The position numbers were made by a program, and so were the translations under genes. From Chloroflexota bacterium (lineage in GTDB: Bacteria; Chloroflexota; Anaerolineae; JAAEKA01), in the NCBI GenBank assembly GCA_034717495.1, contig JAYELL010000064.1, forward strand, positions 2,473-35,681: DNA of 33,209 nucleotides, written 5' to 3'. Shown here piece by piece: positions 13,752 through 20,430 of this stretch; the first letter of the stretch is position 1; each line of letters opens with the position of its first letter. The notes under the pieces were generated by a model. It did no database searches and was not told where the DNA came from. It saw only the letters and a program-made list of their open reading frames with translations.

Positions 13752-14900
13752 CTAATATCGCCCATACCGTTCCGCCGCCTGGCACATGGCTTGCAGATTG
13801 GCGAAGGGCGTGCCCATGTTGATGCTGCCGGCCGTAGTCAGCACCAGGCCGCCCCCCTCGCCGATCAGCTCGATGCTTTGACGCGAGCCCTCCAGAACTT
13901 GCTCTGGCGTGCCGTCTTTCAGCAACAGAGGCGGCACGCAGCCGTAGATGATGGCCTCGGGCAGTTTGCAGCGGATCAGCAGCGGGTCGACCTCGGGGTC
14001 AGGGTTGATGCCGTTGATGCCCAGGTCCAGCAGGAAATTCAGCAGGTGCCCGACTCTGGCGTCGTTGTGATAGAAACGATCGTCCGTCGGGCTGGGCGCC
14101 AACTCGGTGTAGATCTTCTCATAAACCGGCAGGAAGAAGCGCTGAAAGTGTGCCGGGGAGACCAGGCCAGCGATGTCATCGAAAAGGCTGACGCCGGTGG
14201 CCGGCCCGCCGGTCAGGCGGCGTACCGTGCGCGAGTAGTCTACCGTCACCTGGCCGATCAGTTCCAGCAACGCCAGCATCAGGTCCGGCTCGTCGTACAA
14301 GTAGAGCATGAAATCGCCGACGCCGCACAGGAAGTTCAGGATGGTACCCGGTCCGTGTACGGCAGTAACGTCATGCAGGATGCGCCAGCGATAGGGCCGG
14401 TCCAGATCGCGGTAGCACTGGACAAACCAGGGCACCAGTCCGGCCTGGGCCAGGTCCAGCCCTTCCATACGCTCAATCAGGGGCGGGATATCCTCGGGAC
14501 ATCGAATAATGTGACCCAGCCAGGGCGTGGAATCCTGCGGATAGTGAATGGGGTTGCCATACACCGAGCCGTGCAGCAGGGAGGAAGAGTCCACCTTGGG
14601 TACAAGGCGGAAGCCGATCTCAGCCAGCAGGCGCTCAGCGCAGGCCTCCCGCACCTGTTGCTGGAAGGGGAAGTCCTGGATGTAGCGCTGGTAGGACACG
14701 CCCATGAAGTCGATGATCCAGTCCTCGCCCAGTTCGACCAGCACGGGCACCCGGGTGCGATCGCTGGTAAAGGCGGGAAAGACCGGCTGATCCTCCAGAT
14801 TGTCGCCCTGAACTGCTGCATCGCCGTACAGGCAGCGATCGTTCTCGGCCCAAAAGTCCTGCCACCAGCTCAAGGGTAGAAGCTTGCCGGCCTCAGTCAC
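13752..14900 (-). CDS. Uroporphyrinogen decarboxylase-fold protein, zinc cysteines absent
   Basis: A 382-aa URO-D superfamily protein. The frame continues upstream to 15152, but that part only overlaps the cupin gene in another frame; GTG 14900 overlaps the cupin stop (GTGACTGA) and is the coupled start I favour. The C-terminal half shows the URO-D/MtaA layout: FYHNDARVGHLLNFLLDLGINGINP near 277-300 and GGGLVLTTAGSINMGTPFANLQAM near 349-372. In corrinoid methyltransferases of this fold (MtaA, CmuA) zinc is held by His-x-Cys and a later Cys; here they read His278-Asn-Asp280 and Ala-Gly-Ser, so that zinc site is not conserved. Not haem synthesis by context: it ends an operon with a sugar importer, two amidohydrolases and a cupin. 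Function unknown. Confidence 0.85.
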   Translation of the reverse strand: MTEAGKLLPLSWWQDFWAENDRCLYGDAAVQGDNLEDQPVFPAFTSDRTRVPVLVELGEDWIIDFMGVSYQRYIQDFPFQQQVREACAERLLAEIGFRLVPKVDSSSLLHGSVYGNPIHYPQDSTPWLGHIIRCPEDIPPLIERMEGLDLAQAGLVPWFVQCYRDLDRPYRWRILHDVTAVHGPGTILNFLCGVGDFMLYLYDEPDLMLALLELIGQVTVDYSRTVRRLTGGPATGVSLFDDIAGLVSPAHFQRFFLPVYEKIYTELAPSPTDDRFYHNDARVGHLLNFLLDLGINGINPDPEVDPLLIRCKLPEAIIYGCVPPLLLKDGTPEQVLEGSRQSIELIGEGGGLVLTTAGSINMGTPFANLQAMCQAAERYGRY

Positions 14901-15270
14901 CTGACTCACTCCCCACCTGCGCTTCCTCGGGCAGCAAATACTTGTTGATGTAGACGTATTCGATGTGCTCGCCCGGCGCGACCAAAACATCGTGCTCGGT
15001 GTTGGGCGGGATGTGCAGGATGCAGGGGGCCTCGATGTGAATCCGTTCATCGCCCCGTAACAGGGTTCCCTGGCCCCGGACGACCACGAAGACCTGGTGC
15101 CACTCGCTGTGATTGCCCAGGCCGTTGCGACCCGGTCCCTCCACGATGTCATAGCCTACCAGCAAGGCGGGGACGATACCTTTGGGCAGGATATCGCGAC
15201 AGGTCTGGTTCTGTGAGCCAGGATCGCTGTAGGTTGGGATGTCGTCAAAGCTCTTGAGATAGGCTGTCAA
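14893..15270 (-). CDS. Small single-domain cupin protein
   Basis: A 125-aa cupin. The conserved barrel has the first motif around GNHSEWHQVFVVVRGQG (residues 52-68), with His54 and His58 as likely metal ligands, and the second motif around CILHIPPNTEHDVL (83-96), with His93. The usual motif-1 Glu appears as Gln59. The start is TTG 15270 with GAGGT just upstream, since no ATG fits. The stop overlaps the URO-D-like start by 8 nt, so the two are coupled. Stand-alone cupins of this size act as sugar isomerases, dioxygenase-like enzymes or ligand sensors; no substrate can be read. It lies 101 nt downstream of the amidohydrolase gene in the same direction. Confidence 0.85.
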   Translation of the reverse strand: MTAYLKSFDDIPTYSDPGSQNQTCRDILPKGIVPALLVGYDIVEGPGRNGLGNHSEWHQVFVVVRGQGTLLRGDERIHIEAPCILHIPPNTEHDVLVAPGEHIEYVYINKYLLPEEAQVGSESGD

Positions 15271-15371: not shown

Positions 15372-16115
15372 TTAGTCAAGTCTGAAGAGACGGCGGGCGT
15401 TCTCTCCCATGACCAGAGCGTACTCTTCACTCGACAGGCCGGCATCTTCAACAGTGCCCAGCATGTGAGCCGCCTCGAACAGGGTTGCATCGGTGCCGAA
15501 CAGCACCCGCTTCGGGCCCACAGCGTCGATGGCTGCTCTGATCTTCTCAGGGTCGGTCCAGGTGCTGCAGATCTCCAGGTAAAGGTTGGTCGATTCCTGG
15601 GCGACCCGTACACCTTCCCACCATGCATTGCCGCCCATGTGGGCCAGGATGATAGGTAGGTCCGGGTACGCTTGCGCGGCTGGCAACACGTTCCACGGTG
15701 ACTCCAGGGGCGACCCAAAAGTATGGATCAGCACCGGCAAGCCGTATTCGGCCATAGCGCCGGTAAGCGCCAGGCTCTGGGGCGTGTCGTAGCGATGCTG
15801 GGCCAGCAGCGGGTGTACCTTGATGCCCAAGAACTGCGGGTAGCCTTCTGCTCCCAGGTAGCGCCTCATTTCGGCAATCGACTCTTCCACATAGTTGGAG
15901 TTGACAACCACGTAGCCCAACAGCTGGGGGTAGGGCTCGATGGCCTCCGCCATCCTGCGGTTTCCCTCGCAGAAGTCGTAGGCGATGGCCAGACTGGAGG
16001 AGAGGATGGTAACGTCGATACCTTGTGCCTGCATGTAGGCCACAATGTCTTCAACCGACAACTGTGCGATGGGAAAGTACCAATTGCCCCAGTGGGCGTG
16101 GGCATCAACGATCAT
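15372..16115 (-). CDS. Amidohydrolase-fold metal-dependent hydrolase (Amidohydro_2)
   Basis: A 247-aa TIM-barrel amidohydrolase with an apparently complete metal site: HxH at His6/His8 (VDAHAHWG), LGIKVHP on the next strand, LIHTFG, ILAHMGG, and Asp in LFGTDAT. This set matches the ACMS-decarboxylase/lactonase type (Amidohydro_2), which act as hydrolases, lactonases or decarboxylases on small ring compounds, including sugar lactones. It overlaps the preceding gene by ATGA (4 nt). That neighbour is a degenerate version of the same fold, so the two may form a catalytic/non-catalytic pair. The position downstream of a sugar importer suggests an imported sugar-derived lactone, but this is inference. 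Confidence 0.9.
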   Translation of the reverse strand: MIVDAHAHWGNWYFPIAQLSVEDIVAYMQAQGIDVTILSSSLAIAYDFCEGNRRMAEAIEPYPQLLGYVVVNSNYVEESIAEMRRYLGAEGYPQFLGIKVHPLLAQHRYDTPQSLALTGAMAEYGLPVLIHTFGSPLESPWNVLPAAQAYPDLPIILAHMGGNAWWEGVRVAQESTNLYLEICSTWTDPEKIRAAIDAVGPKRVLFGTDATLFEAAHMLGTVEDAGLSSEEYALVMGENARRLFRLD

Positions 16116-16831
16116 GTCCGTCCTCCGTCCGCCAGTAGCCGTTGCAGGTTACCTCCCATGATGGCAGCCCGCTGTTCGTCGCTCAGTGCCGCGACCTCAA
16201 GACAGCGCAGCCCGCTGCCCATGGACGACAGTGGCGCGCCCGACCCGAAGATTAGCCGTTGGTGACCCATGGCCTCAACCAGCACCTTCACGGCGCCCGG
16301 GCCGTGAAGCAAGCGGGTGGACACGTACAGGTTGGTGCCCGTCTCCAACAAGGCCAAAAAGTCACTGGCCTGGTAGAAGTGCAGCCCCAGGATGGTGGTA
16401 ACCGTGGTTCCCTCAACCGCACGCGCCACGGCGCTGGGTTGTCCGCCAAGAAAGAGCACGGCGCCTACCGCTTCAAGGGCGTCCAGCACACGGCGCAGCA
16501 CAGCTTGATCCGGTGTCCACCCCTGATATTCGGGAAACAAGCGCCATAGCCGCACGCCGGCCTCGGTCAGGCGCTGGATCTCCTCCCGGTAGCCCTGGAA
16601 CCTGCGCAGATCGATGGTGCCGACCGGGATGAAGCGCGGCTGCTCCCGGCACCATGCCAGGGTCTCATCGTTGCCCTCGAAATGGTCGAACAGAGCGCCG
16701 CGAGCCGATACCACACAGGCTCGCCGGACGCCATGTTGGTCCATCATCTGCAGGAGACGGCCGGTGGAGATGTCCACCTGGCGCTGTGGCCAGAAGCCGG
16801 TCATCGTGTCCAGATCGATAATTTCGTTCAT
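16112..16831 (-). CDS. Amidohydrolase-like protein without metal ligands
   Basis: A 239-aa protein that lines up over its whole length with the Amidohydro_2 protein encoded next to it, including the end (LIFGSGAP then RAAIMGGNLQRLL against LFGTDAT then ENARRLF). Every expected ligand is replaced: HxH is DLDTMTG, KVHP is LWRLFPEY, IHTFG is LFLGG, AHMGG is GLHFY, and the FGTD Asp is Gly. It therefore probably does not bind the catalytic metal. The reading frame is intact and tightly packed (17 nt after the permease stop, ATGA overlap with the active paralogue; AGAAGG ribosome site), which argues for a maintained structural or regulatory role rather than decay. Confidence 0.82.
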   Translation of the reverse strand: MNEIIDLDTMTGFWPQRQVDISTGRLLQMMDQHGVRRACVVSARGALFDHFEGNDETLAWCREQPRFIPVGTIDLRRFQGYREEIQRLTEAGVRLWRLFPEYQGWTPDQAVLRRVLDALEAVGAVLFLGGQPSAVARAVEGTTVTTILGLHFYQASDFLALLETGTNLYVSTRLLHGPGAVKVLVEAMGHQRLIFGSGAPLSSMGSGLRCLEVAALSDEQRAAIMGGNLQRLLADGGRT

Positions 16832-16847
16832 GATACCTTCTTGTCAC

Positions 16848-17696
16848 TCATGCTTTTAGCCCCGTCAGTGCGATGCCGCGTACGATGTGGCGGCGTAGCA
16901 CGATGAAGACCAGGAGCACTGGTAGGATGGAAATCATGGAACCAGCGTTGATCAGCCCCAGGTCTACCGTAAAACGGTACTGGAACATACCCAGGCCCAG
17001 TTCCATGGTCCAAAGATCGCGGTTGCTGGTTATGATCAATGGCCAAATGAAGGCAGCCCAGGCCACCATGAAGGCGAAGATGGCCAGAGCCCCCATGGGG
17101 CCACGCAGAAGCGGCAACGCTACCTGCCAATAGATACGCCAATCCGATGCTCCGTCGATGCGAGCCGCGTCCATGAGTTCGTCAGGTAGCGATGCAATGA
17201 CGTTCTGGCGCATGAAAAAGACGCCGAAGCTCATGATCAGGTAGGGCGAGACCAGGCCAATGTAGGTGTTCACCTGCTTCAATTTCACCATAGTTAGATA
17301 GAGCGGGATCATGTAGGTCTCGAAAGGCACCATGGCCGTGGCCAGAATCAGAATGAACAGGAAGGTTTTGCCGGGAAAATTGTACTTGCCGAAGACGAAC
17401 CCCGCCAGCGTAGAGGTGAACAGAATGGCTATTGTAGAGGCCGTCGCCATGATCAAACTGTTGAGGAAGAAACGTCCGAAGGGTGCGGTTTCGAACACGC
17501 CGACGTAGTTTTCGAGGGTAAAAGTTTGCGGGATAAGTTGCGGTGGCCAGGATAGCACTTCGTCCGGTGGTTTCAAGGAAGTAGACAGCATCCAGACGAA
17601 GGGCAGCACCATGAGGATAGCCCCTGTCATTAGCAAGATCTGCTTGGCTATGCTAAGTGGCTCGAATCGCTCTCTGAGTGGTTTTTTTTGTGCCAT
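16848..17696 (-). CDS. Carbohydrate ABC transporter permease, MalG-type
   Basis: A 282-aa permease with six predicted membrane segments. It starts with a basic cytoplasmic tail (MAQKKPLRERFEPLS), has the SLKPPDEVLSWPPQLIPQ periplasmic entry and the EAA loop LPDELMDAARIDGASDWRIY, and ends in IALTGLKA. Its ATG lies 1 nt after the stop of the MalF-type gene, so the two are translationally coupled. It forms the channel of the second importer. No ATP-binding subunit is encoded in the window, so a shared ATPase must energise it. Confidence 0.93.
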   Translation of the reverse strand: MAQKKPLRERFEPLSIAKQILLMTGAILMVLPFVWMLSTSLKPPDEVLSWPPQLIPQTFTLENYVGVFETAPFGRFFLNSLIMATASTIAILFTSTLAGFVFGKYNFPGKTFLFILILATAMVPFETYMIPLYLTMVKLKQVNTYIGLVSPYLIMSFGVFFMRQNVIASLPDELMDAARIDGASDWRIYWQVALPLLRGPMGALAIFAFMVAWAAFIWPLIITSNRDLWTMELGLGMFQYRFTVDLGLINAGSMISILPVLLVFIVLRRHIVRGIALTGLKA

Positions 17697-17697
17697 C

Positions 17698-18651
17698 TCA
17701 ATCGCTCCTGATCACGCCGAACTGGATGACCGTCAGGACCAGAATAATCAGGAAGAGGACTACCGCCTCCGATGCCGCATAACCGGTTCTGAAGTAGCGA
17801 AATGCATTCTCGTAGATGTCGAATACGAGGGTTCGGACGGCATTTCCCGGCGCTCCTTGCGGACCCGCAGTCATGATGAAAACCTGGGTGAAGACGTTGT
17901 AGGCGTTGATGGTTGAAATGACGATCACGAACAGCAGGATGGGGCGCAGAAGCGGTAGCGTGATACGACGAAAGATGGCCGAATTGCTGGCGCCATCGAT
18001 CTCGGCCGCCTCGAAGTAGACCTCGGGAATGGCGCGGATGCCCACCAGGAAGATGACCATGTTGTAGCCAATCACTTTCCAGGTGCTCATGATGATGATG
18101 GCCCACATGGCCGTGTCTGGATAGACGAGCCAGCCTACCGGATCGACGCCGATCCAGGAGAGAGCGTAATTCAATAACCCGTAGGTTGGATCATAGATCC
18201 ACTTCCACACTACGGCCACCGGCACCATGGGTGTGATCACGGGAATGAAATAGATGGCCTCGTACCATCCGCCCAGCCGCACCTTACTGGCCAGTAACGC
18301 GGCCAACCCCAGGGCGATAGTCACGCTGAACAGGGTTAGAAAAATGGCAAAGAAGGTGGTATTACGCAGCGATATGAGGAAGAGGTGATCGTTGAAGAGA
18401 TCGATGAAGTTCTGGAAGCCGACAAAGTTCTCGCGGGGATTGACGACGGAAGAATCGTAGAAGCTGTAGATGAAGTTCTGGGCAATAGGGATGATGCGCA
18501 GAAGCAGGTAGATGGCCAGAATGGGAAGAAGCGCCAGGTAGGCGAACATCCGCTTATTCAACTCATTGCGGCTGATGTGGAAGAACCGGGCCAGCGCAAT
18601 GGTCACTCTGTCCGAGAACCTCTCTTGCTGCAGTCCGGCGGATGTACTCAT
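17698..18651 (-). CDS. Carbohydrate ABC transporter permease, MalF-type
   Basis: A 317-aa permease. An N-terminal cytoplasmic stretch of about 35 residues precedes the first membrane helix (YLALLPILAIYLLLRIIPIA). The MalF-type signature continues with FYDSSVVNPRENFVGFQNF, and the EAA loop is IPEVYFEAAEIDGASNSAIF, slightly divergent at its start. GAGGTGACATC before the ATG is a clear ribosome site. The gene is separated from the binding-protein gene by a structured 411-nt gap, and is fused tightly (1 nt) to the MalG-type partner. Confidence 0.93.
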   Translation of the reverse strand: MSTSAGLQQERFSDRVTIALARFFHISRNELNKRMFAYLALLPILAIYLLLRIIPIAQNFIYSFYDSSVVNPRENFVGFQNFIDLFNDHLFLISLRNTTFFAIFLTLFSVTIALGLAALLASKVRLGGWYEAIYFIPVITPMVPVAVVWKWIYDPTYGLLNYALSWIGVDPVGWLVYPDTAMWAIIIMSTWKVIGYNMVIFLVGIRAIPEVYFEAAEIDGASNSAIFRRITLPLLRPILLFVIVISTINAYNVFTQVFIMTAGPQGAPGNAVRTLVFDIYENAFRYFRTGYAASEAVVLFLIILVLTVIQFGVIRSD

Positions 18652-19062: not shown

Positions 19063-20430
19063 TTACTCTCCGGCGTACATGTCCGAGCGTTCGAGAACGG
19101 CGTTGGTCTCGTTCGCCGCATCCTCGATGACTTGGGCGATTCCCTCGGGGTTGTCCACAAGGCTCTCGTCCAGGTAAGCAGACACCAGTCGCTCGGCTAC
19201 CTTGGTCAGAACCTCGTCAAAGGGTGCAATGACGAAGTAGCCGAACTCCCCGTAGTCGGGATCGGACATAGTGAAGGCCTCAAACTGCGGAACCTTGTCC
19301 GTGACCGGCGAGTAGTCTACGTCCTGGCGGGTAGGCAGCCAGCCCACGTTCTCCAACAGCCACAGCAGGTGCTCGGGCTGTTGCATGTACTGGGCGAAGT
19401 CCCAGGCCACATCCGCATTCTCAGCCGAACGGGTAACGTAGATGTTAACTGGATTGGTGATACGACCCCAGCGTTCACCGGCAGGCACGGGCGCCGTGCC
19501 ATAGTTCAGGTCCGGGTTCTTCTTGGCGATGTCGCCGATAACCCACGACTCGCGGAAGAACATGGCCGTCTGCTCCAACTCGAAGGCCTCGGCGTCGTGC
19601 TTGATAGCGTGATCGTCCCAATTGTCCTTATGGACGGCATCGATGTAGTACTGGAGCGCGGCTCGACCGGCGTCGTTGTTGTAGCCGGCTCGGTACTTTC
19701 CGTCGACCTCCTCCAGGATGCTGCCGCCAAGGGGATAGAGCACGAACCACCATTTTTCGCCCACTCCTGAGCCCTGGCCCGAGAGGCGCAAGCTGTGGCC
19801 GCTGCGGGTCAGGTTGCCGCTATCGTCGTATTGGGCCAGTTGTTTGGCATAGTCGTACATCTGCTCCATGGTCTCGGGCGGGCCGGGCAGACCAGCTTCC
19901 TCGAACATGTCCTTGTTCCAGAACAGGGCGGTGCGGCCCATGAACAGGGGCAGGCCGTACTCCTTGCCATCATAAGTATTGTTCTGGTGCATGAACTCGG
20001 AGTAGCGTCCCTCCGTATCTGTGAACTCCTGGACGTCGGCCGGTAGTTCAGGGATCAGGCCGGCCTCGATGAACTTCTGGTTGGAGTACATGGATATCTC
20101 GATCAGATCAGACGCCGTATCCGAGGGGATGGTGGCCGACAGCTTCTGCTCGAACTCGCGCAGCGGCTGGGTCGTGATCTCCACATCGACGTTGGGGTGA
20201 TCCTGCTTGTAGGCTTCGGCCACATGCTTGTAGAAGGGTTCCATTTCAGGAAAACCACCCCAAAGGGTCAGGGTGATGGGCTCATCGGCTACCGATTCGG
20301 CGGGTTGCGCTTCCGCCGGCTCGGCAGGAGCGGCGGGAGGAGCGGCGGGCACTGCACAGGCCGTGAGCACCATGCTGGCGATAAGTATCAGAACCAGTAG
20401 TCGCGGGAACGGCGCATTGAGATTTCTCAT
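19063..20430 (-). CDS. Sugar-binding lipoprotein of second ABC importer (SBP_bac_1 type)
   Basis: A 455-aa solute-binding lipoprotein. The signal peptide is residues 1-24, with lipobox VLTAC and Cys25, then an Ala/Pro/Glu linker to about residue 48. The mature domain starts ITLTLWGGFPEMEPFY and carries the family pieces DHPNVDVEIT, YGLPLFMGRTALFWNKDMF and the aromatic patch GEKWWFVLYPLGG that may face the sugar. GGGAGAGA before ATG 20430 is the ribosome site. It heads a minus-strand operon with two permeases, two amidohydrolase-fold proteins, a cupin and a URO-D-fold protein. The ligand is probably a sugar or sugar-acid oligomer that those enzymes then process; the sequence does not identify it. 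Confidence 0.93.
   Translation of the reverse strand: MRNLNAPFPRLLVLILIASMVLTACAVPAAPPAAPAEPAEAQPAESVADEPITLTLWGGFPEMEPFYKHVAEAYKQDHPNVDVEITTQPLREFEQKLSATIPSDTASDLIEISMYSNQKFIEAGLIPELPADVQEFTDTEGRYSEFMHQNNTYDGKEYGLPLFMGRTALFWNKDMFEEAGLPGPPETMEQMYDYAKQLAQYDDSGNLTRSGHSLRLSGQGSGVGEKWWFVLYPLGGSILEEVDGKYRAGYNNDAGRAALQYYIDAVHKDNWDDHAIKHDAEAFELEQTAMFFRESWVIGDIAKKNPDLNYGTAPVPAGERWGRITNPVNIYVTRSAENADVAWDFAQYMQQPEHLLWLLENVGWLPTRQDVDYSPVTDKVPQFEAFTMSDPDYGEFGYFVIAPFDEVLTKVAERLVSAYLDESLVDNPEGIAQVIEDAANETNAVLERSDMYAGE

Follow-up and report, generated by a model that had tools for sequence, protein, structure and literature searches.

A PF04909 amidohydrolase without metal ligands, encoded beside an intact paralogue, as a candidate non-catalytic subunit

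Introduction

What keeps an amidohydrolase gene open when all the residues that would bind the metal have been replaced in its product? The question is raised by two adjoining genes (called A and B for simplicity) in a stretch of 33,209 nucleotides from a Chloroflexota bacterium (GCA_034717495.1, contig JAYELL010000064.1, positions 2,473 to 35,681; referred to as the window). Both encode members of PF04909, a family that one report puts at more than 100,000 proteins, mostly uncharacterised (PMC10811679). A preliminary description, made from the letters of the window, had called A a pseudoenzyme and proposed that it is maintained by selection, either for a heteromer with B or for a binding or regulatory role. 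Restored ligands or a different active site in orthologues, and relaxed selection on A, were named as findings that would speak against this proposal.

Results

The two proteins are 22% identical to each other and both score above the curated cut-off of the Pfam model Amidohydro_2 (PF04909, 26.4 bits; Table 1). The metal set of the family, i.e. the HxH motif, a beta-5 His, a beta-6 His and a beta-8 Asp, is complete in B (H6, H8, H131, H159 and D209, with Lys99 as the beta-4 Lys), as expected for the active-looking paralogue of the preliminary description. None of the five ligands is present in A, where the alignment places D8, M10, G129, G149 and G198 at these positions, in line with the earlier claim that all five had changed. 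Two residues past Gly149, A has a His (His151) that is shared by 11 of the 39 A representatives. The open frame of A and the ATGA junction described earlier were both recovered; the stop codon of A lies inside the start of B, an arrangement that suggests translational coupling of the two genes. Two trivial explanations were ruled out: a sequencing error or frame problem, since the frame is open and the ligand loss recurs in separate genomes, and a recent local duplication, by the low A/B identity together with a split that is older than the spread of the family.

Table 1. Positions of the A/B couple, its ligand positions and its neighbours in the window.
Feature	Positions	Strand	Basis
Gene A, ligand-less PF04909 amidohydrolase (pseudoenzyme), 239 aa, ATG start	16112-16831	-	Amidohydro_2, 55.5 bits
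Gene B, partner with all five metal ligands, 247 aa, ATG start	15372-16115	-	Amidohydro_2, 108.2 bits
ATGA overlap, stop of A inside start of B	16112-16115	-	sequence
GGAGG, likely ribosome site of B, within the 3' end of A	16122-16126	-	consensus, inferred
AAGAAGG, likely ribosome site of A	16836-16842	-	consensus, inferred
A Asp8, replaces first His of HxH (B His6)	16808-16810	-	alignment
A Met10, replaces second His of HxH (B His8)	16802-16804	-	alignment
A Arg97, replaces beta-4 Lys (B Lys99)	16541-16543	-	alignment; strand 94-99 in model
A Gly129, replaces beta-5 His (B His131)	16445-16447	-	alignment
A Gly149, replaces beta-6 His (B His159)	16385-16387	-	alignment
A Gly198, replaces beta-8 Asp (B Asp209)	16238-16240	-	alignment
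ABC importer permease, directly upstream of A	16848-17696	-	BPD_transp_1
ABC importer permease	17698-18651	-	BPD_transp_1
Solute-binding protein of the same ABC importer	19063-20430	-	SBP_bac_1 / SBP_bac_8
Cupin downstream of B, probably same transcript	14893-15270	-	Cupin_2
URO-D / MtaA-like protein downstream	13752-15152	-	URO-D; subfamily matches below cut-off

Structure predictions performed with AlphaFold2 on a four-sequence alignment gave eight barrel strands for A at middling confidence (mean pLDDT 72.4, pTM 0.77) and a model of B with a mean pLDDT of 87.5 and a pTM of 0.88. In comparisons of A with VIA-align, in which a family missing from the rows is not thereby excluded as a relative, the best match was 3cjp (Z 22.0, rmsd 2.7, 221 residues aligned), and matches were also obtained with 3irs (Z 20.8, rmsd 3.2, 233 aligned) and with the decarboxylase ACMSD (4ifk; Z 20.2, rmsd 2.7, 231 aligned). 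For B, Foldseek returned 3cjp as the best match and gamma-resorcylate decarboxylases next. Models and structure matches thus place both proteins in the PF04909 barrel fold and, since the nearest solved structures of A are barrels of this family, A is predicted to retain the fold without the metal site. Arg97 of A occupies the same place on strand 4 as Lys99 of B.

To see how widespread the couple is, genomes were searched with the A protein (E ≤1e-10; matches in 41 of 396 genomes of the class), with an A profile (E ≤1e-20; 57 of 400 genomes of the phylum, B-type matches counted too) and with a B profile (E ≤1e-30; 66 of 396 genomes of the class). Six records matched in a plasmid collection (Nonomuraea, Subdoligranulum and four haloarchaea), and in all four of those inspected an A-type domain adjoins or is fused to a B-type domain; the couple has thus spread to haloarchaea and Actinomycetota, among others. 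Viral contigs were searched with the A profile as well; a pattern match was obtained in 50 stretches, and a relative is encoded in none of them. No NCBIfam model matched the 21 A or 19 B members that were sampled.

Domains of at least 150 residues were typed with profiles built from seeds that had been sorted by similarity to A or B of the window, and a margin of at least 20 bits was required for typing, which set aside four A-type rows. The loci are ranked best matches, many of them near-copies from one genus, and the tree and conservation figures given below were therefore computed on representatives (at most 72% or 70% identity). None of the five ligands remains in 54 of the 71 clear A-type domains and a single one in the other 17, so that the restored ligands which would have spoken against the proposal were not encountered in this set. 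The beta-8 Asp is present in only a few A-type domains, e.g. in L013, L017 and L018. On the B side, 66 of 69 clear domains keep all five ligands and two keep four; the remaining one, a long lone protein (L109), scored three and is probably misaligned at its N-terminus. The second-tier loci gave the same picture, with no ligand in 15 and one ligand in 2 of 17 A-type domains and five ligands in all 20 B-type domains. In the B half of two fusions (L011 and L012), Met or Lys replaces the beta-5 His and Glu the beta-4 Lys, and the metal site of this half may for this reason be different.

The beta-8 Asp is catalytic in the LigI-type metal-free hydrolase. Its mutant D248N is named in the title of the LigI structure 4dia, and the LigI-type Asp is missing from A, which has Gly198 instead. 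We asked of the conservation data whether A has acquired a different active site. Among 39 A representatives, the catalytic face is conserved at 1.89 bits versus 1.76 bits overall (P 0.10), as compared with 2.07 versus 1.81 bits (P 0.014) among 36 B representatives. The most conserved residues of A are Gly, Pro, Asp6, Asn54, Arg97, Arg192 and Ser197; several of them are common to B and probably structural. An alternative metal set was sought in the conservation table and not found, and apart from the beta-4 Arg the table holds no conserved residue set of a catalytic type. The different active site considered in the preliminary description thus did not emerge, and the conservation pattern speaks against a metal-free chemistry common to A-type proteins, although single lineages may have one.

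These data bear on the possibility that A has a catalytic activity of its own, based on metal-free chemistry, A and B catalysing successive steps. We consider this unlikely. It would agree with the existence of cofactor-less enzymes among the characterised members of PF04909, for which a passage of PMC10811679 cites LigI, and with a barrel pocket that is retained in A, purifying selection (see below) and an Arg97 equivalent that is nearly constant, being found in 68 of 71 clear full-length A-type domains. However, the pocket positions vary (D/N/H/S, G/N/E/D and so on), the catalytic face is no more conserved than the rest of the protein, and the position of the Asp that was crystallised as Asn in LigI is occupied by Gly. 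Moreover, in a distant branch the beta-4 residue is Trp (8 of 17 second-tier A-type domains), and Arg at this position is thus no hallmark of the entire A side.

The genes for A-type domains were then inspected for their neighbours. Among 71 loci chosen by A, 31 encode an A-B fusion, 30 separate genes in the order A-B and 6 separate genes in the order B-A, while 4 lack a partner; 67 of 71 clear A-type domains hence adjoin or are fused to a B-type domain. The four exceptions are L014 and L102, which lie on short contigs, and two domains in L103, one of them a fragment; no B accompanies the A-type domain of L103 within a stretch of 14 kb. Among loci chosen by B, A was found in all of the best 30, which are mostly repeats of the loci chosen by A. 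The fairer test of pairing is provided by 70 further loci (of 95 listed places), as A played no part in their selection. A neighbour that retains 0-1 ligands lies within 600 bp in 55 of these 70, while two have a partial neighbour with 2-3 ligands (L203, L204), one has an intact neighbour (L205), three have a partner too short to score and nine have no partner. These nine include targets that are themselves not intact (L174 and L209 with two of five ligands, L215 with four) and one that ends at a contig edge (L159). To judge from the lone B loci (9 of 70), a B-type enzyme can manage without A in places.

The two genes overlap in 19 of the 30 distinct pairs that are encoded separately, with an overlap of exactly 4 nt in 10 cases, and gaps of 1-37 nt lie between them in the other 11. 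When mapped onto the tree, the fused state requires at least five changes over the A rows and at least three over the B rows, and the B-first order requires one change, in both cases across poorly supported forks. The distribution indicates that fusions arose repeatedly and in both orders.

Several loci deviate from these arrangements. Two haloarchaeal B-A fusions, L058 (6685-8370) and L059 (4158-5834), lie near a class III aminotransferase gene, and one of the two adjoins an A-B fusion; they matched the A profile in pieces (L058 by its second gene) and are outside the 71 domains counted above. In L037 (G000 C50, 2853-5800) a B-type gene overlaps by 4 nt with the gene that follows it, a 708-aa open frame in which an A-type domain is combined with a class III aminotransferase. 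L205 and L041 (6854-8369) carry tandem PF04909 genes in which both members have all five ligands; possibly these tandems are relics of the state that preceded the loss.

In the window, the couple is preceded by importer genes and followed by a cupin gene and a URO-D/MtaA-like frame (Table 1). The latter opens inside the cupin gene and, because of this overlap, its listed start is probably too early. Importer permease genes also precede the couple in L038 and L039, the two nearest relatives. Elsewhere, the commonest neighbour families were Gfo/Idh/MocA oxidoreductases (9), DegT aminotransferases (7) and importer permeases (7), in a tally of 80 operon neighbours from 33 regions that was based on longest-frame calls and of which the 25 commonest of 51 families were viewed. 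As the neighbours vary, the substrate probably differs between couples. From the sugar-type importer and dehydrogenases nearby, one may guess that the compound hydrolysed by B is small and imported, for instance a sugar lactone.

In a tree of 71 rows from which the ligand columns had been removed, the 36 A rows form one clade (support 100/98), and the split between A and B is the same as that obtained by typing except for one ambiguous row. This row (L002) was typed as A by a margin of 2 bits and groups with its own intact neighbour, i.e. it represents a separate half-degenerate case. A further case of this kind is found in L036/L111 (G000 C120), where a PF04909 protein (L111, 804-1526) has E, Y, H, H and N at the five ligand positions and groups with its intact neighbour, located some 1.7 kb downstream; the same pattern is seen in L209.

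The histories of the two sides were compared in 30 couples. A and B distances are correlated with r 0.82, a value matched in 0 of 9999 permutations (mirror-tree); the nearest neighbour is common to A and B in 17 of 30 couples, and 16 of 27 splits agree. Since linkage alone gives mirrored trees, these figures denote long joint inheritance and not contact. Taken together, adjacency, overlapping genes, fusion in either order and the mirroring of the trees argue for a heteromer rather than a free-standing regulator. The latter reading, in which A would act in the operon as an independent regulator or ligand-binding protein that forms no complex with B and in which adjacency merely reflects a shared pathway, could account for operons with importers and sugar-type enzymes and for the pocket retained in A, and yet we hold it to be quite improbable: repeated fusion in two orders, gene overlaps and a partner that is always of the same family exceed what a shared pathway needs, and A has no DNA-binding or membrane domain. 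Of the two roles offered in the preliminary description, a heteromer is hence the one that these data favour, and a free-standing binding or regulatory role is disfavoured.

Median dN/dS values (NG86) were 0.062 for A and 0.025 for B in a first close group (54 of 55 comparisons usable on each side), 0.106 and 0.073 in a second (15 of 15) and 0.135 and 0.053 in a third (36 of 36). In the window's own clade they were 0.183 and 0.202 (5 of 6 usable, with dS near saturation). A is under purifying selection, which in the three close groups is somewhat weaker than that on B, and the two sides have diverged at equal pace (median distance ratio 0.99). The earlier suggestion that A is kept by selection is thereby borne out, with dN/dS of about 0.06-0.14 in the close groups and well below 1 in every group, and relaxed selection was not seen. 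That A is a duplicate in decay, about to be lost, is hardly credible, for although all five ligands are gone, the frame is open in the collected relatives, dN/dS is low, the rate of A equals that of B, and A-type domains form one ancient clade that has spread to haloarchaea and Actinomycetota.

Discussion

The reading that we prefer, with a probability of roughly 0.7, is an ancient heteromer of enzyme and pseudoenzyme in which A is the non-catalytic subunit of B. B would be the metal-dependent catalytic barrel, and A and B would be two subunits of one enzyme. A would be a barrel that diverged long ago within the same family, lost its metal site and was retained because B needs it, pairing with B via the barrel-barrel contact common in PF04909 enzymes. 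It might stabilise the fold or the active-site loops of B and may add residues to the B pocket, and the 4-nt overlap, by coupling translation, would hold A:B near one to one. Physical contact between A and B, their stoichiometry, the need of B for A and the reaction itself are what we infer from the analysis of the genes. Both proteins are short and should lend themselves to co-expression, which makes the main claim directly testable.

A broader picture, to which we give rather less than even odds, is that obligate amidohydrolase heteromers of enzyme and pseudoenzyme form an ancient family of bacteria and haloarchaea. In this family the metal site would have been lost once, the pseudoenzyme would have become indispensable, the couple would have spread over many substrates, and fusion and re-splitting would have occurred repeatedly along with one change of order. 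If this is true, the couples, together with the half-degenerate cases and the tandems with two intact members, constitute a large natural series that leads from a homomer to an enzyme in which one subunit is dead and yet essential. If many PF04909 proteins belong to such dead/live couples, automatic annotation as two amidohydrolases would misname one member of each couple, B enzymes may appear inactive when assayed without A, and a dated series would be at hand for the passage of duplicated homomers into obligate heteromers. The kind of arrangement is already known, as set out below, and the A/B family itself appears undescribed: no account of the couple was found in the open-access literature searched, an absence that carries little weight as subscription papers were outside the scope of the search.

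The closest precedent is AibH1H2, the 2-aminoisobutyrate hydroxylase of Rhodococcus wratislaviensis (PMC7782822, PMC10401708, PMC12141560). As described in passages of PMC7782822, it consists of two PF04909 proteins of 28% identity which assemble into an alpha2-alpha'2 complex and each of which fails alone in the cell. The likeness lies in adjacent genes for PF04909 paralogues of low identity, one of which (AibH2) is catalytic and the other (AibH1) not. However, AibH1 retains a mononuclear metal site (Asp24, His26, His201, Glu255 and Asp328; PMC7782822), whereas A keeps none of the five ligand positions, and AibH2 has a dinuclear site with another set of residues, beginning with DxH (Asp25, His27; PMC12141560), and a Rieske partner, in contrast to the ordinary HxH/H/H/D of B. 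Membership of A/B in the AibH1H2 family was ruled out by these metal residues and by the sequence match, an AibH chain hitting the B profile at E 0.34. No Rieske ferredoxin was found among the window genes scanned. By analogy, A/B would resemble AibH1H2 in its architecture.

A further precedent is found in class A2 aspartate transcarbamoylase, where a pseudo-dihydroorotase, a subunit that belongs to the amidohydrolase superfamily and has no zinc ligands, is required for the activity of its partner (PMC7053772). It differs in that its partner is an unrelated transferase and in that the pseudoenzyme stems from another family of the superfamily; the partner of A is a PF04909 barrel and not an aspartate transcarbamoylase.

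Enzymes of the ACMSD and gamma-resorcylate decarboxylase type share the fold of A and differ from the A/B couple in being homodimers with both sites intact. ACMSD is active only as a dimer, the neighbouring subunit supplying an active-site Arg, as stated in a section of PMC9021598. A corresponding donation by A of an Arg located after beta 6 was considered and rejected, as the A alignment has no conserved Arg there; towards the end of beta 7 an Arg is common among A-type proteins and not constant. Among the residues of A, none was found that could reach the site of B as Arg239* does in ACMSD.

The best match of the A profile among solved structures is 3irs, an uncharacterised PF04909 protein (BB4693 of Bordetella bronchiseptica, E 9.5e-13). 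This protein is 18-20% identical to A and lacks the beta-8 Asp in the alignment (GTAYP), and it is possibly a solo relative of the A side.
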